DNA of 50,897 bases, taken from contig CALHZT010000295.1 of assembly GCA_938040995.1 (NCBI GenBank), forward strand, positions 1-50,897. The letters run 5' to 3'. The notes under the pieces are model-generated. The model worked only from the letters and a program-made list of their open reading frames with translations. It searched no databases and had not been told where the DNA came from. The stretch comes from an uncultured Pirellulaceae bacterium (GTDB taxonomy: Bacteria > Planctomycetota > Planctomycetia > Pirellulales > Pirellulaceae). The position numbers and the translations under genes are program-made. Of the stretch, positions 156 to 27,209 are shown in pieces (position 1 is the first letter of the stretch; every line of letters begins with the position of its first letter).

Positions 156-2330
156 TTATCGCCGCGACCGCTTGTTCGACTTCTTTGCTCGCTTTGCTTT
201 CGGTGCTCTGGCGGATTTTGTGCGCGTCGGCTGTTTACGAGTCGGTCGTGATGCGGCGCTGGGAGCTTTTCGCGACTGGGCCGACGTCGTTCTCGAAGAA
301 GGACGAGTTGCCGGTGAAGGCGCTTGGGGACGTCTGACGGATCGCTGTGATACGCGGGTTGATTTCGGTGTGGACTTTAGCGCAGACTTTTGAACCGTCG
401 GCTTGCGAGGGGACGGTTGAGGCGTCCTTGCAGCTGGAACCTTTCGATTTGCTCGCCTGTTTTCCTGCTGTTGGCGTCGTTGGGAGACAACAAGGTCATT
501 CATCATGCGCTGCTGTCTTTTTCTCGCCTCGTTAATGCGATCCGCGGCAGATCGGCTGGCCGCTTTCTCGTTCTGCCTGGCGACTTTGTCTCTCTGTTCG
601 GCTTGCCGCCGCAGGTTGTCGTTGAAAGACTTTAACTGCTTTGCTTCCGTTCGCGCCTGCCGCTGTTCAGCGGCACGTCGCTCACGAGCCTGTCGCTCGC
701 GGGTCTGTTCCGCCAATCGGCGGTTGGTGCGTTCGTTGGCTTGCTGTCGGGCAACTTCTTTTGAGCGAGCCTTCTCGAAATTTCGACGATTGGAATCATT
801 TTGCGATCGAATCACCCGTGGCAAATCGGGACTCGAAGGTCGTCGTGGTGCGCCTGACTTGGGTGTGCGAGCCGAAGCGATGGGAACCGATGGTACGCGT
901 TGCGACAGGCCCTTCGCTGGACCTTTTTTTACTGGATCGACTCTTTCTGGACGACCCTTTGCCGGCCCTCGATTGCCTTTGCGGTTTGCGACAGCAATTT
1001 GCTTTTCCAGCTTTTGCCGCTGACGGGCAAGTCGCTGGATGCTTTCGATTTGCGCACGAGCTGCCTTGGACGACTGGATCGCCCGTGAGTTCGATCTTAC
1101 CGAATAGGGCGCCCGAGCCGGTCTTGATTTCACCAACAATGATTGCGGCGGTCGTACATTTCGGGACGCACCCAGGTGCCGACCAAAGTTCAAATTGACT
1201 TGCAGCGACAGGGTACGTGGTGGACGCAGGCTGACGTTTGATGTGTAGTAGCGATTCCAGTTGTCCAGATGTCGGCGGAAATCCAGCCCACGACGCGAGT
1301 AGAACACGTTGTAATAGCTAATCAGTGGATCATGGCGATGCGAGGCGCGACGATAATCGTAAAGCGGATAGAACCCTCGGTCACGATAAGCCACGTCGTA
1401 GTAGTCTCCAAACCAGTAGCACGACTGGTTGCTTGCGACGAACATGTGGATCAGCAAATTCGACGTCTGCACAGGGCAGGTTGGCTGGTACGTCACGACC
1501 GGTTCTGGGCAGAAAATCGGTGCGTACAATTCGCCACGAGCCGGCAGGACATAGTCCCAGTATCCTGTCACAAACACGCAGCCTGAGGGTGTCGAAACAT
1601 AATGGTCGGGGACCCAAACGTAGTCGTCCCGGTATTCGTTCCAGTATCCCGGTCGCCATTGATATTCCAGATTTACAGGCGGGTGTATTCCGGTATCAAA
1701 CGTGTTGACAGCCCAGGGGTCGCTGACGGCAATTTCGTTTTGCGGTTGTTGCGTCCATACACCAGGGACCCAAAACTGATTGTCGGATGGTTGCGGGGAT
1801 GTCGGGCCATTTTCCAATGACAGTGGTGGGCGCTGAACGTAGTTAAACTCCTCCGTACCAGCGACTGACCAAAACCCGGTGACTCGTCGCCACCCGTCTG
1901 ATTCTTCAACCCAATAGCCGGGCATCCATTTTCGGCCTTGCGGTTCGACTCGCCAGACGCCACTGATCCAGATAAAGTCGTTCCGTTCTTCGTCCCAGAA
2001 CCAGTAGCCCGGGATCCAGGAGTACGGTCGCTCACTCGCGTCCTTCGCGGTCAACTCTGGTGGCAATTCACGAATCTCTTCAGGTGGCTGCCGAGGAACA
2101 ACGAATGTCGGTTGTGCCTCGTGGCCGGTCGCGGTTGCGAACGCTTCGTGGATCGGTCCGCGAGCCAGAACTTCGATGTTGTCCTGGTTGTTCGGCGTAT
2201 CGAAGGTCAAGTCGCCGGTTGGCGGTGGCAACTCAAAAAGCGGATCCTGTGCTGTCGCAATCGAGACTCCAGCCACCAGGATCATGGTGACTTGGAGGAT
2301 GAAAGCCGCCGTTGAGTGAAACAATTTCAT
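156..2330 (-). CDS. Secreted YXWGXW-repeat protein with basic tail
   Basis: Secreted protein of unknown function. From the ATG at 2330 it begins MKLFHSTAAF and has a hydrophobic signal peptide ending near ATAQDP. An in-frame start at 2393 would add 21 residues before the signal peptide, so 2330 is preferred. The N-terminal half carries aromatic repeats of the type W-x-PGYW (for example YSWIPGYWFW, RKWMPGYWVE, YQWRPGYWNE, DYVWVPDHYV), matching the YXWGXW repeat known from planctomycete and other bacterial secreted proteins. The last 250-300 residues are extremely rich in Arg, Lys, Ala, Gln and Ser and end in NKRSRR, which suggests binding to a polyanion or the cell surface (inference). It appears to be transcribed alone, with the 51-131 inverted repeat downstream. 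The reverse-strand frames here are shadows. Confidence 0.85.
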   Translation of the reverse strand: MKLFHSTAAFILQVTMILVAGVSIATAQDPLFELPPPTGDLTFDTPNNQDNIEVLARGPIHEAFATATGHEAQPTFVVPRQPPEEIRELPPELTAKDASERPYSWIPGYWFWDEERNDFIWISGVWRVEPQGRKWMPGYWVEESDGWRRVTGFWSVAGTEEFNYVQRPPLSLENGPTSPQPSDNQFWVPGVWTQQPQNEIAVSDPWAVNTFDTGIHPPVNLEYQWRPGYWNEYRDDYVWVPDHYVSTPSGCVFVTGYWDYVLPARGELYAPIFCPEPVVTYQPTCPVQTSNLLIHMFVASNQSCYWFGDYYDVAYRDRGFYPLYDYRRASHRHDPLISYYNVFYSRRGLDFRRHLDNWNRYYTSNVSLRPPRTLSLQVNLNFGRHLGASRNVRPPQSLLVKSRPARAPYSVRSNSRAIQSSKAARAQIESIQRLARQRQKLEKQIAVANRKGNRGPAKGRPERVDPVKKGPAKGLSQRVPSVPIASARTPKSGAPRRPSSPDLPRVIRSQNDSNRRNFEKARSKEVARQQANERTNRRLAEQTRERQARERRAAEQRQARTEAKQLKSFNDNLRRQAEQRDKVARQNEKAASRSAADRINEARKRQQRMMNDLVVSQRRQQQENRRANRKVPAARTPQPSPRKPTVQKSALKSTPKSTRVSQRSVRRPQAPSPATRPSSRTTSAQSRKAPSAASRPTRKQPTRTKSARAPKAKRAKKSNKRSRR

Positions 2331-3113
2331 TGGATTCGATCCGCATGAGCCAGGATTACGGTTTTTGAATTTTCGCAACTTGACCAAGGGCAACTACGAT
2401 GCCTAAACCGGACGATTGCCTGCAATGCTTTCTACGAGAGCCTGTTGTTCACGTTTTTCGCGGCCAAAACCACTGCGAGAACGTGTTTTGCAAAAAGCCG
2501 CCGAAGTCCGTGTTGTCAGACCGATGACATGGAGTCTCGACACTGGATTGGCGTACAAGCGGAGGGTGTCGTCGCTTGCTGGCTGGTCCAATCCACCCTG
2601 GCGACACCAGTTTTTTGAACTGCGGGCGATAGTTGACAGGTTTGATTTCACCTCATGCTTGCCCGTTATTCCATCGGCTGTTTCAGGCCGAGGAAAATCT
2701 GCCTCGCCCTGCTATGGAACGAAAGCGGTGGAAACGATTTCATTCTGGAAGAACCCACAGGAAAGATCTCCGTTGGTCGAAAACCAGTCGCTTTTTTCCC
2801 CGAGGTCTTTTCGTAGTGTTCGATATAACCATGATCCAGCCATCTGGATCTCGATCCCACCGCCCGCAGTCGATTCGGCGGCAGGTATTTCAGGGTCGAG
2901 TTCGGCGAGGAATTCTTGATTCTCCAGGCGTGAGCGCCGTGGGCTTTTGCATTTCTTGACGAAAGCAATGCGGGCGCTATCCTGCTTGATGGAGTGTCGC
3001 TTATCTGCAGCAGCGGGTTTGCTGAAAACCGCAATTTGCCAGCAGTGGAACTCCAAATTCCGGCATTTCTGAACCGTAGTCATTTCCGACACATGGAAAT
3101 AGAAATAACGACT
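2331..3113. other. Intergenic region, no recognisable gene
   Basis: About 780 bases between two divergent genes. Short open frames exist on both strands (for example 2712-3092 on the minus strand, 126 codons) but none has a convincing ribosome binding site, a recognisable motif or a compositional signature of coding. The 2712-3092 frame is the least implausible, and a degraded gene cannot be excluded. No strong hairpin was found. Confidence 0.5.
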
Positions 3114-3240: not shown

Positions 3241-5424
3241 ATGAGCAAGTTTCATCACCACAGCGATTCTGCCGCGGCGGGCACCGCGACCCGGACTCTC
3301 GAGTTCTTTGCGTCCTCGTCGCGGGTGACGTTTGATCGGCCTTTGGCGATGCGGACGGTTACCGAGATGGTCCGGGCGATTCCTGGAGATGACCACCGCG
3401 TGTGGGGGCAGCGGCTTGTCGAGGCCGGTGAAAGTGTGAACTTGCGGATTCGCACGACGGAACTCACCGTCAAAGAGGCGGTTCGACTCGTCCGGGAAGG
3501 CGTTCCGGTCGCAGCCTGTTTCATAGGCAATGATCTGCATGGCGACTCGTCCGTTCAATGGATCGCTCTGAAAACGTATCGCCGTGGTAGGACGGAAGTC
3601 GTTGATTTGGCCAACGATTCTTCGAAGTGGTTATCCCGAAGGCAGCTACGCAAACTGTTGCGCGTGAGAACGAATCGCGACGGTCTTCGCTGGATAACGG
3701 GCCAGCCGGCATTGCCGTGCACCATTGTTGACCAGTCAGGAACTTCCAGTCGACCGGTCAAGCCGCTGGAGCGGTTGATTGGAATGATGCGTGCGGACTC
3801 GAATGACCTGTGGGCCGTTCTAACCTTCTCTCTTATCGTGGGCGTCCTCGCATTGGCGACTCCGATTGCAGTCGAAGCGCTGGTGAATACCGTCGCTTTT
3901 GGGCGCTACCTTCAACCAATTGTTGTGCTATCAATAATATTGATGACGTTTCTTGGGTTCGGTGCCGCGATTCGGGCGTTGAACACGTTTATCGTTGAGA
4001 TCGTGCAGCGCCGGTTGTTTGTTCGAGTCGTTGAAGATCTCGCTTATCGGCTTCCGCGAGTCGAGCAGGAGGCATTGGATAATTACCACGGTCCAGAGCT
4101 CGCGAACCGCTTCTTTGACATTGTGACCGTCCAGAAGGTCGCCGCAAAATTGCTACTTGATGGTATCACGATTGTTCTGCAGACCGCGCTCGGCATGGTC
4201 GTGTTGGCTTTCTACCATCCATTCCTGCTTGGATTCGATGTCGCGTTGCTGATCTGTATCGTGTTCATCGTTTTTGTATTGGGGCGAAATGCCGTCAAGT
4301 CCGCGATCAACGAATCTGCAAGCAAGTACCGCGTAGCTGCGTGGCTTCAGGAGCTGTTGCGAAATCCGACTGCATTCAAGTTGCATGGTGGAGCCCAGTT
4401 TGGTCTGGAACGAGCCGACAAGCTGGCTGTTGATTATCTTGAAGCGCGTCGGGCTCACTTTCGCATTGTGATGCGACAGATTGTGTTCTCGCTGGCACTT
4501 CAGGCAGTCGCGGCGACGGTGCTCTTGGGGCTTGGTGGTTGGCTGGTGATTCAGGGCGAGTTGACGCTTGGCCAACTGGTTGCGGCGGAGTTGATCGTGA
4601 TGAACATCGTCGGTTCATTCGCCAAGATTGGTAAGTATGTCGAAAGCTTTTATGACTTGCTGGCTGGCGTCGACAAGCTCGGCAAGCTCTTTGATCTGCC
4701 AATCGAGCCACATGACAAGCTCTTTCACCTGCAGGACGCAACCGCAGCAACACTCGCTGTGCATTCGGTATCACAGAAGATCGGCGAAACTACATTGCAC
4801 GGGAAACTCTCGTTTGAGGTGGCTCCGGAACAGCGACTGGCAGTGGTTGGGCCAGCGGGAAGCGGCAAGACCGCATTGCTGGACCTGATCACGGGAGCCC
4901 GGCACCCATCGGCTGGTAACGTGACGTTGGACGGAATCGACTTGCGCGAGCTGCGGCCGGATTCGTTGCGCGAGCATGTTTCACTGGCCCGTGACGTCGA
5001 AATTTTTCAGGGAACGATCGAAGAAAATGTGCATTTGAATCGTCCGCAGATTAATGCGTCCGATGTGCGCGATGCACTGAAGAAAGTTGGATTGCTCGAA
5101 GAGATTATGAGGCTGCCCAAGGGGCTGGGCACGGCCATTCAAACGGGTGGTGCGCCGTTGTCTGGTAGTCAGGCAGTGCGGCTGATGTTGGCCCGGGCAA
5201 TCGTTGGCCGGCCACGGTTACTATTGCTTGACGGAATCCTCGATTCTCTTGCCGACGCGGAACTGGAAAGGGCGCTGGCGAACCTCGCAAGTGGAAAGCA
5301 GCCGTGGACACTCGTCATTGCGACAGGCCGGAAATCTATCGCTGAGGTGTGCGACCATTTGCTCGACTTGGCGACCGGCAAGGTGGAGCCCACCACGTTG
5401 ACCAAAATGCAAACAAGAGCTTAG
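3241..5424 (+). CDS. ABC exporter permease-ATPase with degenerate NBD
   Basis: Inner-membrane half-transporter of the type I secretion kind (727 residues). Residues about 1-180 form an N-terminal domain; its order (GVPVAACFIGND, then WIALKTYRRGRTEVVDLAND) recalls the C39 peptidase-like domain of T1SS ATPases but has no evident catalytic Cys-His, so that is inference. Residues about 185-470 are the membrane domain with hydrophobic segments near 190-215, 226-250, 305-350 and 415-440. The nucleotide-binding domain has Walker A GPAGSGKT (537-544), a signature-like LSGSQ (640-644) and Walker B RLLLLDG (659-665). The expected catalytic Glu after the Walker B Asp is Gly665, the H-loop His is absent (IATGRKS, 693-699) and the Q-loop position is Arg584 (SLARDVE). 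The protein may therefore bind ATP but hydrolyse it poorly as a homodimer. The next gene, an HlyD-type adaptor, starts 22 bases after the stop. Confidence 0.88.
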   Translation: MSKFHHHSDSAAAGTATRTLEFFASSSRVTFDRPLAMRTVTEMVRAIPGDDHRVWGQRLVEAGESVNLRIRTTELTVKEAVRLVREGVPVAACFIGNDLHGDSSVQWIALKTYRRGRTEVVDLANDSSKWLSRRQLRKLLRVRTNRDGLRWITGQPALPCTIVDQSGTSSRPVKPLERLIGMMRADSNDLWAVLTFSLIVGVLALATPIAVEALVNTVAFGRYLQPIVVLSIILMTFLGFGAAIRALNTFIVEIVQRRLFVRVVEDLAYRLPRVEQEALDNYHGPELANRFFDIVTVQKVAAKLLLDGITIVLQTALGMVVLAFYHPFLLGFDVALLICIVFIVFVLGRNAVKSAINESASKYRVAAWLQELLRNPTAFKLHGGAQFGLERADKLAVDYLEARRAHFRIVMRQIVFSLALQAVAATVLLGLGGWLVIQGELTLGQLVAAELIVMNIVGSFAKIGKYVESFYDLLAGVDKLGKLFDLPIEPHDKLFHLQDATAATLAVHSVSQKIGETTLHGKLSFEVAPEQRLAVVGPAGSGKTALLDLITGARHPSAGNVTLDGIDLRELRPDSLREHVSLARDVEIFQGTIEENVHLNRPQINASDVRDALKKVGLLEEIMRLPKGLGTAIQTGGAPLSGSQAVRLMLARAIVGRPRLLLLDGILDSLADAELERALANLASGKQPWTLVIATGRKSIAEVCDHLLDLATGKVEPTTLTKMQTRA

Positions 5425-5446: not shown

Positions 5447-6814
5447 ATGTCAACGGTCTTTGGCCCACGACGATCGTCGAATCCTTTTACACCGAAAGAA
5501 GAGCTTTCGGCATTGCGGCTGGTTCAGTCATCGCTGATTGCCCGGCGACTGGCGAGCGGTTTGTTGTTGCTTTTGGCGGCATCAATCGTCGCGATGTTGG
5601 TTTTGCCGTGGCAGCAGTCTGCCAAGGGGACCGGCCGGGTGACCGCCTATGTTCCTCAGGAACGAAAGCAGACGGTGATGTCGCCAGTGAAGGGGATCGT
5701 GGAACGAGTGGCGGAAGGGCTTGTCGAAGGATCGCAAGTGAAGCAGGGTGATTTGATCCTTGAGCTTGGACCGGCGGCTGCCGATATGGCTTCGCAGCTG
5801 GAAGGCCAGCTTGAGGATCTGAACGAAAAGTTACGAACGGCGAAAGTAAAAGCGGAAGCCTACTCGCAAAACATGCTCGACTATGGGGAGGCTCGTGATT
5901 TTGCAGTCAGCGCTGCGGACGAACTCATCAAGGCAGGGCAGGCTAAAGTGCGTGCGAAGGAGGATCTGATTTCGGCGTACGAAGCCAAGGAGTGGCAGGC
6001 GCGCAAGAATTACGAACGGCAACGGCGACTTGCGAGGCAGGGGATCAAGTCGAGCAAAGAAGTCGAAAAGATGAAGAAGGATTGGGACGTTGCCAAGGCC
6101 GAACTTGATTCCTCCCGCCGTGAAGTCGTTACGGCTCAAAAGGAGTTGGAATCCAAAAGACAGCAACGGCAGGAGAAACTGAAAACGGCTCAGACAAAAG
6201 TTGATTATGCACGTGCTCTCCGGGAAGACGCATTAGGGCTTCAGGCTACCGTTCAAAAAGAAATTCGGACATTGAACATCAAGCAGTCCGAAATGAAGCG
6301 GATGGTCATTACTGCTCCGCGTGACGGCACGATTTTTCGTATGCCCGTTTTTGAGCGAGGCATGACGATCAAGGAAGGTTCGGAGTTGTTCACCATCATT
6401 CCAGACACCGAAGACCTTTCTGTCGAATTGTGGCTGGCTGGGAATGACGTGCCGCTGGTGCGACCAGGAGACCACGTTCGATTGCAGTTCGAGGGTTGGC
6501 CTGCAGTGCAGTTTGCCGGTTGGCCATCGGTAGCAGTCGGGACCTTTGGCGGTATGGTGGCGGCGATTGACGAAACGGACAACGGCAAAGGGAAGTTTCG
6601 TATACAGGTGCGCCCGGAGGAGGATGGTGTTGAATGGCCATCCCATCGTTTCCTCCGGCAGGGTGTTCGCGCTAACGGATGGGTAATGCTTCAGCAGGTT
6701 CCGTTGGGCTACGAAATGTGGCGGCAACTGAACGGCTTTCCGCCAGTGGTTGCCGAGGAAGAACCCGCCAAGGAAAAAGACGACAAAAAGAAGAAGCCCA
6801 AATTGCCCAAGTAG
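5447..6814 (+). CDS. HlyD-family periplasmic adaptor (membrane fusion protein)
   Basis: Membrane fusion protein linking the inner-membrane ABC transporter to the outer-membrane channel (455 residues). A single membrane anchor lies at residues 36-54 after a cytoplasmic tail. It is followed by a lipoyl-like half-motif (TVMSPVKGIVERVAEGLVEG), a long charged coiled coil at about 110-285 (repeated K/E/A/Q heptads such as DWDVAKAELDSSRREVVTAQ), and the second lipoyl half with TAPRDGTIFRM, then a beta-barrel region. The C-terminus is a Lys/Glu-rich tail (EKDDKKKKPKLPK). The start ATG is preceded by a purine-rich AAGAACGAGAG. Its position directly after the ABC gene and upstream of a TolC-like gene supports a tripartite exporter. 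Confidence 0.92.
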   Translation: MSTVFGPRRSSNPFTPKEELSALRLVQSSLIARRLASGLLLLLAASIVAMLVLPWQQSAKGTGRVTAYVPQERKQTVMSPVKGIVERVAEGLVEGSQVKQGDLILELGPAAADMASQLEGQLEDLNEKLRTAKVKAEAYSQNMLDYGEARDFAVSAADELIKAGQAKVRAKEDLISAYEAKEWQARKNYERQRRLARQGIKSSKEVEKMKKDWDVAKAELDSSRREVVTAQKELESKRQQRQEKLKTAQTKVDYARALREDALGLQATVQKEIRTLNIKQSEMKRMVITAPRDGTIFRMPVFERGMTIKEGSELFTIIPDTEDLSVELWLAGNDVPLVRPGDHVRLQFEGWPAVQFAGWPSVAVGTFGGMVAAIDETDNGKGKFRIQVRPEEDGVEWPSHRFLRQGVRANGWVMLQQVPLGYEMWRQLNGFPPVVAEEEPAKEKDDKKKKPKLPK

Positions 6815-6867: not shown

Positions 6868-7104
6868 ATGACGGACAGTTCCATGCTTTGCGCCACATGT
6901 TCGCCCACCGTTGAATCCAAGTCAGCGACCGCCAAAAAACGTTTCAAGAAAACGCTGGCGATGTATGCCACCATGGTGACGGTCAGCACATTTGCGATTT
7001 TCTTTCTCGAGCATGTAACGCTTTACAATGCGGTTCGCACTGCCCTCGTTGCTGCCGTCGCCAAAACGTTTGCGGCCAATTGGGTCACGGGTCTGTTTCA
7101 GTAG
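6868..7104 (+). CDS. Small membrane protein in exporter cluster
   Basis: A 78-residue protein starting at the ATG at 6868, chosen because GCGGAGG lies five bases upstream; the longer in-frame extension to 6679 overlaps the adaptor gene and has no such site. The N-terminus has a CATC motif (SSMLCATCSPT), then a basic patch (KKRFKKT) and a hydrophobic stretch TLAMYATMVTVSTFAIFFLE, which predicts a membrane segment, with a second weaker one (AVRTALVAAVAKTFAANWV). I do not recognise the family. Sitting between adaptor and outer-membrane genes, it may be an accessory subunit of the exporter (inference). Confidence 0.7.
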   Translation: MTDSSMLCATCSPTVESKSATAKKRFKKTLAMYATMVTVSTFAIFFLEHVTLYNAVRTALVAAVAKTFAANWVTGLFQ

Positions 7105-7236: not shown

Positions 7237-9114
7237 ATGGATCGGTTTAGAACCTTCATTTCGATTGCGATCCCGGCGTTGATCGCACTAGCGATGCTAT
7301 CGCTTGTTGGATGTGCGACTCGTCGGCCATCCGTAGCGAAAAGCAATCTTTCTGCTCCGCCGGGCGCACGTGCCTTGCAGCCACAGTCTTCTCCGGTTCG
7401 GCTTGTTTCGTACGCAGAAACCGACGAGGGGCTTTCCGATCCGCCCGCCGGCGATTTGATGCAGTTGTCGGGTGACGCTCGAAAGCCAGAAGCTGACGAG
7501 CCAGCTTTGCTGGATGATCTCGAAGACGACGAATCCGGGGATGACTTATCGCCCGGTGACAGCATGGATGCTGAAGGCGAATCTCGCGGCGCCAATAAAG
7601 AAGGCGACCGAGAGGAAGGCACAGACGAATCAGAAGACGACTCCGATGGAGAGGATGAAGACTCTGACCTGGAGGACGAGGAAGACGATTCCGATTCAAA
7701 AGATGACGGGGATGGAGAGGACGATCCGCTGGGAATCAGGCCCCGGACGGAAAGAGAAAAATGTTTCAATGCGAATGCTTTGCGACTGGACCAGGTTCTT
7801 GGATCGGTAGCTGCCAGTTATCCGTTACTTGATGTTGCGATAAATGAGCTTGCTGCCGCGGAGGGCAAGGCACTGGCGACTTGGGGCAACTTTGACACGG
7901 TACTTTCTGCATACACTTTTAACAAACCGCTGGGCTTTTACGAGACTTATCAACACGGCTTCAAAGCCAGTCGGCCACTATGGAATGGTGGCGAAGTCTA
8001 TGGTGGCTATCGCATTGGTCGAGGTGTGTTCGAGCCGTGGTATCAGGAGCGGCAGACCAACGAGGGTGGCGAGTTCAAGACGGGCGTCAAGCTTCCCTTG
8101 ATGAAGGGTTTCGCGACCGATGGGCGGCGGACCGCTGTTCAAGTCGCCAATCTGGAACGCTTGCGGCTGGAACCAGATATTCGGGCGCGAGTGATTGAAA
8201 TGCAGCGTGCGGCCAGTCAGCTTTACTGGAAGTGGGTTGCGGCTGGACAAGTGGTCCGCACCCAGGAATACCTGCTCAAGCTGGCTCGCGTTCGTAATGA
8301 GAGTCTGATCGAGCAAGTCAAAGAAGGCGATTTGCCCAAGATTACCGAGATCGATAACGGCCGGTTTATCGCGAAGCGTCAGGCGAAACTGATCGAGTCG
8401 CGTCGAAAAGTACAACAGGCGGCGATCAAGCTTTCGTTGTTTCTGCGAGATCAGTCGGGACAACCTTTGGTCGCCGGCAACGAACTGTTGCCTTGCGATT
8501 TTCCTCAGCCATCGCCAACAGATCCCTATTCCGTCGAGTCTGATATTGCACAGGCGATCGCGCAACGGCCGGAACTTCGTGAGTACGATTTTCAGGCCCA
8601 ACAGGTTCAGGCGGAACTGTGCTACGCACGAAATCAGACGCTTCCAAAATTGGACGCGTATGCCGAAACTGGTCAGGACGTTGGTGAGCCGACAAGTAGT
8701 ACGCGGGACAAGTCGGAGCTTGAGATCGAACTTGGGCTGCTTGCCGAAGTGCCTCTGCAAAGGCGCAGTGCATTGGGGAAAATCCGGGCGGCAGAAGCCA
8801 AGCTGGCTCAGATATCCGCCAAGCGGCGATTTGCCGAAGACAAGATTCGTAGCCAGGTGCTTGATGCCGTTTCGGCTCTCGACAATGCCTACGAGCGAAT
8901 TGAACAGGCTCGTGAAAACCTGCGGCTGACTGAACAGTCGCTGCGACTGGGACGGCTGAGTTTTGATGAAGGCGACATCGACATCATCAAGCTCAACATC
9001 TATGAGACTTCTCTTGCCGAAGCCGAACTGTTGCTGATCGAAGCAGAGCTTACGTACTTCAATGCGATGGCCGATTATCGTGCCGCCCTCGCGATCGAAT
9101 TCCAGTCTGAATAA
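7237..9114 (+). CDS. TolC-like outer-membrane efflux lipoprotein with acidic insert
   Basis: Outer-membrane factor of the tripartite exporter (625 residues). The signal sequence ends in a lipobox LVGC (Cys26), so the mature protein should be lipidated. Residues about 87-163 are an almost continuous Asp/Glu/Ser/Gly tract (for example ESEDDSDGEDEDSDLEDEED). The rest has the long alpha-helical pattern of the TolC/OEP family, with two internal halves (VANLERLRLEPDIRARVIEM near residue 310 and LGLLAEVPLQRRSALGKIRAAEAKL near 500) and conserved late motifs (ARENLRLTEQSLRLGRLSFDEG and the final YFNAMADYRAAL). The acidic insert is unusual and might bind Ca2+ or keep the periplasmic entrance charged (inference). 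Confidence 0.9.
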   Translation: MDRFRTFISIAIPALIALAMLSLVGCATRRPSVAKSNLSAPPGARALQPQSSPVRLVSYAETDEGLSDPPAGDLMQLSGDARKPEADEPALLDDLEDDESGDDLSPGDSMDAEGESRGANKEGDREEGTDESEDDSDGEDEDSDLEDEEDDSDSKDDGDGEDDPLGIRPRTEREKCFNANALRLDQVLGSVAASYPLLDVAINELAAAEGKALATWGNFDTVLSAYTFNKPLGFYETYQHGFKASRPLWNGGEVYGGYRIGRGVFEPWYQERQTNEGGEFKTGVKLPLMKGFATDGRRTAVQVANLERLRLEPDIRARVIEMQRAASQLYWKWVAAGQVVRTQEYLLKLARVRNESLIEQVKEGDLPKITEIDNGRFIAKRQAKLIESRRKVQQAAIKLSLFLRDQSGQPLVAGNELLPCDFPQPSPTDPYSVESDIAQAIAQRPELREYDFQAQQVQAELCYARNQTLPKLDAYAETGQDVGEPTSSTRDKSELEIELGLLAEVPLQRRSALGKIRAAEAKLAQISAKRRFAEDKIRSQVLDAVSALDNAYERIEQARENLRLTEQSLRLGRLSFDEGDIDIIKLNIYETSLAEAELLLIEAELTYFNAMADYRAALAIEFQSE

Positions 9115-22277: not shown

Positions 22278-25200
22278 TTATGAAGACTCGTTTTGATCGA
22301 ACCGCATCACCTCGAATTCTCGCATCCTTCGCAACCAGTATGCGTCAGATTCGTTCTCATTTTTTCGTTCTTCATCGGCATCGAAACGATCAGGTGCGAC
22401 GCTGAGCGTTGTTCGCGCAACGGCGCTAACCTTGGGATACGCCGGGAAGTCGAAGTACAGCACCGCTTCAGGCGAGTCATCGGTGACCTGGATCTCGATG
22501 GTATCTACAGGCAGCATAGCCGATCGTGGTGTACCAAAGTCGTCCGTCGTGAGGATCGACGGAAGTGCTGATGACGGGGCAAGTCTTCCAACGTTTGTTC
22601 CAGCTTTTGTTCCAACAACAATCGCTTTGGGCGCGGCGCGAGGAACGCTCAGCGACGTGACTTGTGCCTGGAACGTCAGCCGATCTCGCCACACAGTAAA
22701 GTCTGCCGCATCGACGATTCCATTTCCATTGCCGTCCGCATTAAGCGCCGTCGTGCTGTTAAAGCTGGAGGCCCAGGTGGCATGATCGAGCGTGGTGACG
22801 AAGCCATCGCGGTTGTAATCACCCGGCGTGATCGGCGGCGCGGCCGCCGCCCCGGGCGTGGGCTCGACGGCGATCCAACTGCTCGCATCATTTCCGTAGC
22901 TTCCAGATGAAACACGATGAAGTGAATCGCCTTGTCCATCCGCCGTACTCGGCCAGGGGGCCTGATCATCAAAGATGACTTCGTCTTCGGTAATATGAGC
23001 CACGCCGGCCGCGCTCCCGAGCGACGGTTGATGGGCTCGCTGAAGTTCGACCCGATCTGTATTGTTGTTGAGGCTCGAGCCCGAGGGGCCCACAAGCGAA
23101 ACGGATGGTCCAATCCCGTAATGAACACGAAAAGCCTGTGCCTTGTTTGTGTCGATACCTGGGTCAAACCTGACGACCACGAGAGATTCTTGCGGGGCCA
23201 GGGAGGTCCCATCGGCGAAATCAAAATCACTGCCGCCACGTAATCGCCAATCATCAAGGCTGACCGATCCCACATTGGGATTGTGAATCTCAATGAATTC
23301 CAATTCGTCATCAGTAATCGTCGGATCAATCTGCAAAGCAGTGGCATTCGGCTCCGACGGGTGATAACTGACTTCGCTGATAATCAGAGGGCTAATGCGG
23401 GGCGCGGAGTTCGCAGCCCCCGGTGTGGTCGTTGCCTGTGGATAAACTCTACCGCTTCCATCGGGAACCCGGCCGAAGGATTCTCCAGCCAAAGCGGCAC
23501 CGAACTCAACCGAATCGAGAAATCGCGGCTCGCCCGTAGAAACTTGCTGTGTAAGCAAAACCTCATTTTGCCCATCGGGATCGAGGTTTAATCCAGAACT
23601 CGGGAACAAAATATACTCCCCGGGGCCCAGCAGTGTGTTGGCGGGAATTTGCAAGTCGAAAAGGGCGTTGGGATCGCTACTCAGGTACCACCCGCCCAAA
23701 TTCACAGTGCTACTCGTCACGTTCAACAACTCGACGTTCGGAAGCTCCTGGGGGCTGGCGTGAGAAAGCACCTCATTAATGACCACGGATTTTCCCGAAC
23801 TCGACAACCCCGGAGTACCACCGTACTCGTAACTCGCGTCCCACCGATGGAAGGCGCCGGCCTCGTTCAGCGGCGTATTGAACGGCGAACTTAAAACGAG
23901 CGTGGCTCCAATGCCATCCGCGGTCAACGGCCACGGATCATTGTCGTTATAAGCGACGTTTAGCAGTTCATTTCGGTCGGCATCCGTGATGGAGACCTGC
24001 CCACCCGAATTTGGCAAGCGTCCGCTCCACTGCCCGAGTACGAGCGCGTCGGTTCCGTATCGAATCTGGAATGCAGCCTCGTCTTCGACAATGACCGCTC
24101 GCTCACCCGGCCCCAAAAAGACGGAATCGAAAGAAAACGAAACGTCTCCGGCCAGTGAGAATCCCGCAAGATCGAGCGTGCCCATGGGATCCGGGTTGAT
24201 GATTTCGATAAACTCAAAGTCATCGTCGTCCAACCCCGAAATAGCTTGCAATTCTGAACTGGACGGATCGTGAGGGTGGTAGTTGATTTCAGAAATTCGC
24301 AGCTGGGTAGGGTCGCCAAGTTGACCAACGATGAAGAACTTGCTCGACAATGGTGACCAATTCCCATTCACGAGGGTTCTCGCTTTGACAGTTGTATTTG
24401 TCGTTATGGGGAACCCACCGCTCGGGTACAGCACGCCATGGATACCCCCGCCGGGAGCACGCGGGTCGGAACCGTCCACTGTGTAGTAGACGTTGTTTTG
24501 GTTGGCCTCAACAATGGTACTGAGAGACAGACGTGGTTGAATGAGAAGGTCGGAACTGGCGTCATTAAGATTCAATCCATGAATCGCAAGAACATTCGAA
24601 CCGGGCGTCAACAGTTGCTTGTGCGCAGAAAGATCAATGAACTCGTAGTTGTTCGCCACGGTCGAGTCCGAAAGCTGTGACGTAGCATTGGATTGCCAGT
24701 TGAGGTCCGCCGGTGCTCGACGATTTGCAGACGGAATTGCTTGCCCGTTGAGGTAGACAGCAAATCCGTCATCCGCCTTGATTTGGAGCTCCAGGGAATC
24801 GGCATCAGCTGCGTCAAAACTGGCGTCCAAATCAAACTCGAATCGCGTGTAAACCGACGACTCGGTTGCGTCCCACGCGGGCTGAATGTCTGTCCCAATC
24901 AACGGATCGTACTCGGCTTGGCCATTTTCGTATCCAACGCCGTTGCTGCCCGTCGTCCACCCGGACGCATCGAAACTCGTTTCGTACCAGAAAGGTCCCG
25001 CTCCAGTCTCCAGAGAATCGTCGACCGGGACGAACGCCCGCGCCTCAGACACCAACGAAACCACTTCAAGCTCAGCCGCAGATCCCAGCGTTACGGTACC
25101 GCCATTCGGGACGAAAGCACTACTCGGCAAGATGGGCGGTGGCGCGGGGTCTATTAGCTGACTGTCGATCCAGTCAACGCGATCGCTAATCCACTGCTTC

Positions 25201-27209
25201 ATAAAGTCAATTTGCTCGATCCACGTCGCCGTATTCGGCGGACGGAATGGCAAATTGGAATTCAGTACATTCCACCTTTGGAAATTCCTCTGCGGGGCAT
25301 CTCCCAATTCATCGACGAACCCGTCAAGAATGCCAGAGATATTATCCAGGTCGTACACGGTCTCGCGCGCCTCGAACCAACGATCCCTGAATTTGAGAGC
25401 AAACTCGGGATCCTCCATTAGCCGCCCGATCCACTGTGCGCCAACGAACGCCGAGTTTCTTTCGTATTGCCAGCCGGATGCCGAAGTATTGCCACGAGAG
25501 CTACCCACACCCAGTGTGAGATTGAAATCCCAAAGCGGTCCCTGCGTGATTTTCCCGCCGCGATCTTTGTACAGGTAGTTACTGCGGAAGTAAGCGTCTT
25601 GATCGCGGCCAAGTTCATTGAGCACCATCAAGTTGATGAACGAATCGACATCGATGTATTTGGCATAACCGTTGACTGGATCCGCAAAATCTGGCCCGTT
25701 TAAAATGTTGACGAATTCCTGAACGTGGCTCGTCAACCACGATTTTTGAGCTGCGGTGTAGTTTTCCTGATCAACAAGTTGCAAACGATGGTTGTCACCT
25801 GTTTCATAAATCAGCGAACCCGGATCCAGGCCGGTATCAAAACGCAACAAATACCCGCCGGTGATTTCCGGAACGGCGTTATCCGCCGGCGTGAGTTCTT
25901 CGATATCAAGCCGGTCTTCACCGATCTTGATGGTCTCGCGAATGCTGTATACGCCCACATAATCTGCGGCTGACAACGGCGCGTTGCTCCCGCCGGAATT
26001 TAGATACAGCTCGACAAATTGCGTCCGTGGAGCATTTAACCCAAGTTGCCGTCCAATTTCAAAATTGAATGGATTACGCAGCAATGACTTGTCCACATAC
26101 GGCCCGAACAGGACCCAGTCGGAATCCGCCGAGAGCCCTGCCAGTTCAAAATCAAGATCGTCGCCTGCTTCGTCCCGCAATTCAAGACGATACTGTTGTT
26201 TCGGAAAGGTGCTGGACGAAGACCCTCGCACATGGATCGCCGATGGCGTAGAGACCGTCGGCGAAGACAGAAGAGACGTCTCACCGGTCTGCGCATCTGG
26301 TTCGAAAAGCTGAAAACTGAAATCAGAAAACGAATCGCCGACGCTGCCGCCACCGAAATTGTCGAGAACCACGATAGGTAATTCTGAGGTTACATTTTGG
26401 ACGTTGGATGCCAGCTCAATGTACCGCGCCGAACTGACAGGCCCGTCGGGCTGCCCCGTCTGCAAAACTCGGGCGGTGATTTTAACCGAATCGGCAATTG
26501 TGAATGGCCCTGTGTACACCGTCGAACTTGAATTTGGCGTGCTGCCGTCCGTGGTATAAACGATCGTCCCACCTGCCACTCCTGAACCGATCGCTAACGA
26601 AAACGAAGACGAAAATGTTCCCGAGTCACGCGAAAAGACGACGTTACGAGAATCGAGACTGGGTATCGAAGTGCCGTTCGCAGCGTTGGGAGTCGGGATG
26701 AGGAAGTAGCCCACTGCGCCGGCCGCATCGAGGCCGTAGGACACATCAGCAGTTTGCGCCGGGTAATCGCTTCCGTCAGTGCCGAATTCGCTCACTAAAG
26801 TTTCGTTAGAGTCGAACAGCCCCAAGTACTCTCCGCTCGCTCTAAGCTTGAAATTGGTGTGCAGGTTGCCCGCCGCATCGGGTAGATCATCGCCTGACGC
26901 AAACACGACCAGGCTTTCACCCGGCGCCAGATTCACCTGCGCGTCATCGGGGAACGTCCACTTTGTGTGGTCGCCGGCGTCATCGGTGAGAAACCAGCCG
27001 TCCAGATCTACGGGTTCATCACCATTGTTGCGGATTTCGATCCAATCCGAGAATACGCCATTTCCATCCGCGAGTGTCGCGTCATTGGATGCCATGAACT
27101 CGGAGATCACAGGCGCCGCAGCTAACAGGTGCCGATTCTCCAGCGTTTCCAACCCCAACCGGCGAGACTTTTTCCTGACGTTCGCTGGCCGCAAAATCGA
27201 AGTTCTCAT
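22278..27209 (-). CDS. Giant lamin-tail / CotH / dockerin surface protein
   Basis: Exported multidomain protein (1643 residues). The N-terminus carries a LEPR-XLL-like motif (LGLETLENRHLLAA, about 18-31), a planctomycete export-associated signature. Lamin-tail (LTD) domains occur near residues 35-155 (ISEFMASNDATLADGNGVFSD, DWIEIRNNG), 1000-1110 (RISEINYHPHDPSSSELQ), 1145-1260 (VINEVLSHASPQELPNVELL) and 1280-1420 (ISEVSYHPSEPNATALQ). Chitobiase/FN3-like Ser-Thr-rich segments with YTTDGSTPNSSS (near 215) and YTVDGSDPRAPGG surround a CotH kinase-like domain (about 330-700: VGVYSIRETIKIGEDRLDIEE, ITGGYLLRFD, NELGRDQDAYFRSNYLYKD). A dockerin pair (GDYNRDGFVTTLDH, NGNGIVDAADF) lies near 1500-1540. 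CotH domains phosphorylate secreted proteins in spores; the role here is unknown. Confidence 0.92.
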   Translation of the reverse strand: MRTSILRPANVRKKSRRLGLETLENRHLLAAAPVISEFMASNDATLADGNGVFSDWIEIRNNGDEPVDLDGWFLTDDAGDHTKWTFPDDAQVNLAPGESLVVFASGDDLPDAAGNLHTNFKLRASGEYLGLFDSNETLVSEFGTDGSDYPAQTADVSYGLDAAGAVGYFLIPTPNAANGTSIPSLDSRNVVFSRDSGTFSSSFSLAIGSGVAGGTIVYTTDGSTPNSSSTVYTGPFTIADSVKITARVLQTGQPDGPVSSARYIELASNVQNVTSELPIVVLDNFGGGSVGDSFSDFSFQLFEPDAQTGETSLLSSPTVSTPSAIHVRGSSSSTFPKQQYRLELRDEAGDDLDFELAGLSADSDWVLFGPYVDKSLLRNPFNFEIGRQLGLNAPRTQFVELYLNSGGSNAPLSAADYVGVYSIRETIKIGEDRLDIEELTPADNAVPEITGGYLLRFDTGLDPGSLIYETGDNHRLQLVDQENYTAAQKSWLTSHVQEFVNILNGPDFADPVNGYAKYIDVDSFINLMVLNELGRDQDAYFRSNYLYKDRGGKITQGPLWDFNLTLGVGSSRGNTSASGWQYERNSAFVGAQWIGRLMEDPEFALKFRDRWFEARETVYDLDNISGILDGFVDELGDAPQRNFQRWNVLNSNLPFRPPNTATWIEQIDFMKQWISDRVDWIDSQLIDPAPPPILPSSAFVPNGGTVTLGSAAELEVVSLVSEARAFVPVDDSLETGAGPFWYETSFDASGWTTGSNGVGYENGQAEYDPLIGTDIQPAWDATESSVYTRFEFDLDASFDAADADSLELQIKADDGFAVYLNGQAIPSANRRAPADLNWQSNATSQLSDSTVANNYEFIDLSAHKQLLTPGSNVLAIHGLNLNDASSDLLIQPRLSLSTIVEANQNNVYYTVDGSDPRAPGGGIHGVLYPSGGFPITTNTTVKARTLVNGNWSPLSSKFFIVGQLGDPTQLRISEINYHPHDPSSSELQAISGLDDDDFEFIEIINPDPMGTLDLAGFSLAGDVSFSFDSVFLGPGERAVIVEDEAAFQIRYGTDALVLGQWSGRLPNSGGQVSITDADRNELLNVAYNDNDPWPLTADGIGATLVLSSPFNTPLNEAGAFHRWDASYEYGGTPGLSSSGKSVVINEVLSHASPQELPNVELLNVTSSTVNLGGWYLSSDPNALFDLQIPANTLLGPGEYILFPSSGLNLDPDGQNEVLLTQQVSTGEPRFLDSVEFGAALAGESFGRVPDGSGRVYPQATTTPGAANSAPRISPLIISEVSYHPSEPNATALQIDPTITDDELEFIEIHNPNVGSVSLDDWRLRGGSDFDFADGTSLAPQESLVVVRFDPGIDTNKAQAFRVHYGIGPSVSLVGPSGSSLNNNTDRVELQRAHQPSLGSAAGVAHITEDEVIFDDQAPWPSTADGQGDSLHRVSSGSYGNDASSWIAVEPTPGAAAAPPITPGDYNRDGFVTTLDHATWASSFNSTTALNADGNGNGIVDAADFTVWRDRLTFQAQVTSLSVPRAAPKAIVVGTKAGTNVGRLAPSSALPSILTTDDFGTPRSAMLPVDTIEIQVTDDSPEAVLYFDFPAYPKVSAVARTTLSVAPDRFDADEERKNENESDAYWLRRMREFEVMRFDQNESS

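Follow-up and report, generated by a model that had tools for sequence, protein, structure and literature searches.

A widespread bacterial family of HlyB-like ABC exporters in which nearly all members lack the residues for ATP hydrolysis

ATP hydrolysis is the defining feature of ABC exporters, and to our knowledge the known degenerate ABC exporters retain one working site. In the degenerate-site heterodimers TM287/288, TmrAB, and TAP, this consensus site is kept via the partner subunit (PMC7756269). The SbmA/BacA (SLiPT) peptide transporters are reported to be proton-driven and to come from full-length ABC transporters that lost their NBDs and coupling helices (PMC13316013). With this precedent, an ABC-fold TMD can function without ATP. 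In Planctomycetes, secondary SecA_DEAD/HlyD/M50 loci have been described (PMC4452313). The literature that we searched on ABC exporters degenerate at both sites and on planctomycete type I secretion, with incomplete coverage, contained no description of the family reported here.

We analyzed a window of 50,897 nucleotides from an uncultured Pirellulaceae bacterium (GCA_938040995.1, contig CALHZT010000295.1), in which an open reading frame with an ATG start encodes an exporter that matches the Pfam models ABC_membrane (1.3e-10) and ABC_tran (5.9e-21) (Table 1). Its AlphaFold2 model (pLDDT 86.3, pTM 0.86; 39-sequence alignment) begins with an alpha/beta domain, continues with six TM helices that include both coupling helices, and ends in a complete NBD fold. 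The top Foldseek match in the PDB is HlyB in the HlyB/HlyD complex (8dck), over 723 columns, and the next best is PCAT1, also full-length. No conserved Cys is present in the N-domain of the family consensus, and this domain therefore resembles the C39-like domain of HlyB, not a peptidase. The exporter is like the type I secretion exporters (TIGR03375, TIGR01842, and TIGR01846; PDB 8dck and 7sgr) in having a C39-like N-domain, six TM helices, a C-terminal NBD, and HlyD and TolC genes downstream, with HlyB as its best full-length fold match. In contrast to these exporters, it lacks the Q-loop Gln, catalytic Glu, H-loop His, and A-loop aromatic residue, and its NCBIfam scores are far under the listed cut-offs (195.8 vs 693.1 bits for LssB, TIGR03375). 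The architecture is thus HlyB-like, but the catalytic feature that defines these systems is missing.

Table 1. Positions of the exporter operon and of the exporter's domains and NBD motifs in the window.
Feature	Position	Strand	Basis
Degenerate HlyB-type ABC exporter, 727 aa (operon gene 1)	3241..5424	+	Pfam, homologues, model and fold matches
N-terminal C39-like domain, residues 1-165	3241..3735	+	Full-length Foldseek match to HlyB and PCAT1; family consensus
Six-helix transmembrane domain with both coupling helices, residues 170-490	3748..4710	+	AF2 model, conservation; best-conserved part
Pseudo-NBD, residues 500-715	4738..5385	+	Pfam, AF2 model, residue conservation
A-loop, Ile514 in place of the aromatic residue	4780..4782	+	Motif reading, alignment
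Walker A GPAGSGKT, residues 537-544, intact in this allele	4849..4872	+	Motif reading
Q-loop SLARD, Arg584 in place of Gln, loop shorter by one residue	4990..4992	+	Motif reading, alignment
Signature LSGSQ, residues 640-644	5158..5172	+	Motif reading
Walker B LLLLD (660-664), then Gly665 in place of the catalytic Glu	5218..5235	+	Motif reading, alignment
H-loop I-A-T-G-R, Gly696 at the His column	5326..5328	+	Alignment with His-bearing relatives
HlyD-type periplasmic adaptor, 455 aa (operon gene 2)	5447..6814	+	HlyD_3 2e-13; conserved beside gene 1
TolC-type outer-membrane factor, 625 aa (operon gene 3)	7237..9114	+	OEP 3.7e-27; conserved

A sequence-only reading of this locus had assigned the exporter a complete adaptor and a TolC-like partner, and the HlyD_3 and OEP matches agree with this. 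The arrangement is conserved among homologues: in 41 Pirellulaceae neighborhoods, the next gene encodes HlyD in 40 and a TolC gene is present in 36. No other gene family is common to more than nine of these neighborhoods, so linkage points to neither a substrate gene nor a partner ATPase. In the window, an ORF of 78 aa that contains a hydrophobic stretch and is preceded by GGAGG (6868-7104, forward strand; no Pfam match) lies between the HlyD and TolC genes; the operons of most relatives have no space for it.

Among the motif losses that had been read from this allele, those of the catalytic Glu and the Q-loop Gln stand, with G665 following D664 and R584 in the Gln column of the alignment. The H-loop His is also missing, but alignment with His-bearing relatives places the substitution at G696, one residue later than the T695 named in that reading, which had also overlooked the loss of the A-loop aromatic residue (I514). 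Walker A and the signature had been called intact. In this allele, Walker A is indeed intact and the LSGSQ is fairly complete, but the signature is degraded across the family. The three ordinary half-transporters of the same genome (hereafter the L003, L004, and L005 types) keep their Q, DE, and H motifs. A sequencing error or pseudogene can be dismissed, given that the frame is open, many genomes share the losses, and dN/dS is low. A single odd allele can be dismissed as well, given that about 120 homologues, some of them from single-contig genomes, show the losses too and that the normal half-transporters of this genome retain their motifs.

Homologues at E<1e-40 were found in 60 of the 100 Pirellulaceae genomes sampled, nearly always as a single copy, and profile searches detected family members in 159 of 298 Planctomycetia genomes, plus 12 genomes from other classes. 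We aligned 144 members, eight of them from other phyla, and none is fully canonical. The Glu is kept in 22 members, the His in 17, the Walker-A Lys in 116, and the Walker-B Asp in 131. When homologues are compared at the three positions, as the sequence-only reading had proposed, the canonical residues are absent in the great majority: 119 members have neither Glu nor His (in 24 of these the Walker-A Lys is gone too), and 14 have both. The rare Q-loop Gln residues belong to members with losses in other motifs. Among degenerate planctomycete members with the Lys, the A-loop aromatic residue is kept in 34% and the signature Gly643 in 17%, compared with 100% for both in the clade that retains Glu and His; the Walker-B D664 is conserved in 98% of degenerate members with the Lys.

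Most members with both Glu and His belong to this one clade (L045, L179, L180, L182-L185, L188, L189, L197, and L201-L203), in which Walker A, DE, the H-loop His, an LSLGQ-type signature, and the aromatic A-loop are intact and the Q-loop Gln is replaced. The Q-loop position is Lys in all but one of its members (VKG[IV]EIFEGT). Judging from these motifs, the clade is apparently an ATPase-competent ABC family without the Q-loop glutamine. In a TMD-only tree, whose root is unreliable, the Glu changes at least nine times, the His six, and the Lys 17. Ordinary half-transporters root this tree poorly owing to a very long outgroup branch, so we give only the counts of changes and argue their direction from the ancestry of the ABC superfamily.

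Purifying selection acts on every domain of the exporter. Most close pairs have dN/dS values of about 0.02-0.08 for the TMD and 0.03-0.15 for the NBD, and a few divergent pairs have higher values. The TMDs of Pirellulaceae members have a mean pairwise identity of 0.555 and their NBDs one of 0.362, which is the inverse of the pattern in the canonical L003-type exporter, also from Pirellulaceae (0.597 and 0.680, respectively); the Glu- and His-bearing clade is intermediate (0.607 and 0.550). In degenerate planctomycete members, A651, R652, P658, N596, and D668 are found at 96-100%, whereas the residues that contact ATP vary. From this difference, we infer that the NBD has been retained for its fold and contacts and not for catalysis. 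The persistence of Walker A and the Walker-B Asp in most members suggests that binding of nucleotide or Mg may still matter in most of the family or in a part of it. The exporter is one of a widespread family that bacteria actively maintain; nearly all members lack the ATP-burning residues, and the membrane channel and both partner proteins remain intact.

The spread of the family outside Planctomycetota is known from plasmid records only, among which tblastn identified sphingomonad and Bacteroidota relatives. In all the annotated records that we inspected, the exporter gene is followed by an HlyD-type (or biotin/lipoyl-binding) adaptor gene and then a TolC-family gene, and profile searches revealed the same exporter-HlyD-TolC arrangement in two unannotated Persicobacter records. 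None of these plasmid relatives has the Walker-B Asp, and half of them lack the Walker-A Lys. Against ABC_tran, three of five plasmid relatives have no match (L209, L210, and L212), one falls below the cut-off (L207), and one scores 61.6 bits (L208). The most decayed NBDs, all within exporter-HlyD-TolC operons, are those of L207 and L210-L212 from sphingomonad plasmids and L206, L208, L209, and L213 from Bacteroidota. Several plasmid records with decayed NBDs carry the annotation "ABC transporter ATP-binding protein."

The non-catalytic Walker B and altered H-loop are shared with TM287/288, TmrAB, and TAP, and degenerate NBDs typically occur in such heterodimers (PMC7756269). Like the subunits of TM287/288 or TAP, the exporter might pair with a canonical half-transporter, encoded elsewhere, whose ATPase site works for both, and the window genome does encode three canonical half-transporters. 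We consider this quite unlikely on the basis of the orthologues of these three proteins in the same 100 Pirellulaceae genomes. The L005 type is present in nine genomes. The L003 type is present in 68 and is weakly associated with the exporter gene (46/60 carriers vs 22/40 non-carriers; Fisher p=0.03, uncorrected for kinship), but it is absent from 14 of the 60 carriers. The L004 type, whose orthologue in the window genome has complete motifs, is present in 96, non-carriers included. Furthermore, an ABC_membrane search of 29 selected carriers showed that G079 (a single contig, 99% complete), G043, and G072 encode only two such proteins, the degenerate exporter and the L004 type. The genome search for a partner half-transporter, which had been suggested from the sequence, thus ended in these three carriers with the near-universal L004 type, and no dedicated partner was found in them within reach of the Pfam model. 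From the orthologue distribution and these two-protein carriers, a dedicated unlinked partner is unlikely, and a moonlighting heterodimer with the universal L004-type housekeeping half-transporter is possible. No conserved partner gene adjoins the exporter gene, and the operon retains its own HlyD and TolC. Compared with the described heterodimers, the losses in this family extend to the Q-loop, the A-loop, the signature, and sometimes Walker A. Most members have lost Gly643, without which a partner's site would be incomplete; this allele has LSGSQ, but only 17% of degenerate members keep Gly643. The sequence-only reading had offered a heterodimer or an exporter driven differently. The lack of any dedicated partner in the three carriers and the degraded signature disfavor the former and leave the latter, with no positive evidence for a particular driving force.

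It is also unlikely, in our judgment, that the exporter is still slowly driven by ATP, with another residue (e.g., the conserved D668 or E587) polarizing the water. This allele retains Walker A, the Walker-B Asp, and LSGSQ, D668 is present in 98% of degenerate planctomycete members with the Lys, and a sister clade retains Glu and His. However, D668 and E587 are present in that clade too and are therefore not replacements, the His, Gln, and A-loop aromatic residue are lost as well, and related members with the same operon are entirely without Walker A. For this allele by itself, ATP binding, and slow hydrolysis via another base, are possible given its Walker A, Walker-B Asp, and good signature. 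We regard as very improbable a third arrangement, in which the exporter no longer transports but anchors the HlyD-TolC conduit in the inner membrane, in a structural or sensory role, and the substrate comes from another machine, such as the secondary SecA_DEAD module. That module has HlyD-type proteins without an ABC protein, and SecA_DEAD was suggested by the authors to give the ATPase activity (PMC4452313). The SecA_DEAD/HlyD/M50 loci share with the exporter operon the HlyD/TolC-type conduit parts and the absence of a working ABC ATPase at the locus, but they contain no ABC protein whatever (PMC4452313) and are neither linked to nor co-distributed with the operon. The TMD is the best-conserved part of the exporter, which argues against a mere anchor. 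Nearly all of the sampled Pirellulaceae genomes encode a second SecA_DEAD protein (about 650-790 aa), whether or not they carry the exporter gene, and secondary SecA was rejected as an exporter-specific motor for this lack of co-distribution.

The reading that we favor, and consider reasonably probable, is a pseudo-ATPase type I exporter, that is, an HlyB-like homodimer in a tripartite conduit that is no longer run by ATP hydrolysis. With both Glu and His gone in 119 of the 144 members, and the Walker-A Lys as well in 24 of those, such pumps are probably powered or gated otherwise. The pseudo-ATPase reading is further favored because the same operon in sphingomonads has NBDs below the ABC_tran cut-off, structural positions of the NBD are fixed while those of the ATP site have decayed, the conservation of the two domains is inverted, and no dedicated partner gene was found in the genomes examined. 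What the data show directly is the operon, the HlyB-like fold, the loss of hydrolytic residues throughout the family, purifying selection, and a TMD conserved more strongly than the NBD; the homodimer, export, and the end of ATP hydrolysis are deduced from these. The homodimer would form the inner-membrane pore and dock via its own HlyD to its own TolC, giving a single conduit to the outside. The NBD would persist as the folded dimer that the coupling helices still require. In members with Walker A, including this allele, the NBD may bind ATP as a switch or nucleotide sensor, and in members without Walker A it would be purely structural. Substrate export may be driven by an ion gradient or by substrate folding outside the cell, or it may be facilitated.

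The likeness to SbmA (PMC13316013) would be an ABC-exporter TMD freed from ATP hydrolysis, as far as the sequence of the exporter indicates. SbmA lacks the NBD and coupling helices, whereas the AF2 model of the exporter has both, and SbmA is an importer with a glutamate ladder (PMC13316013), whereas the exporter sits in an export operon and no glutamate ladder was identified in it. E212, E253, and E450 are conserved in the exporter family. We found no membrane acidic residue gained in step with the loss of Glu665: E212 differs between groups but gives no signal in five phylogenetically independent pairs, a comparison of little power. These data thus give no positive support to proton coupling by a newly gained acidic residue.

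Within one conserved operon family, the members form a graded series from Glu and His kept, to both lost, to Walker A lost, to an NBD that is barely recognizable. These are natural intermediates for how an ABC transporter can work without its ATPase and for non-hydrolytic roles of NBDs, and they may parallel the route by which SbmA is proposed to have arisen from full-length ABC transporters. Tentatively, a multi-phylum lineage of tripartite ABC-fold exporters may have abandoned ATP hydrolysis, kept a folded pseudo-NBD, and come to use an ion gradient or another non-ATP drive, in an independent and graded conversion from primary to secondary transporter "caught in the act." The losses also suggest that the annotation "ABC transporter ATP-binding protein" has been given to many proteins that are not ATPases.

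The divergent neighbor of the operon (156-2393, reverse strand) encodes a protein of 745 aa whose WXXGXW repeats are weak and whose C-terminal half is very basic and rich in Arg, Gln, and Ala; it has no conserved link to the exporter and is possibly a cell-surface protein. Farther along the window (22278-27209, reverse strand), a 1643-aa, extracellular-looking protein combines a below-threshold dockerin match with CotH kinase, four lamin-tail domains, and Fn3-associated domains.
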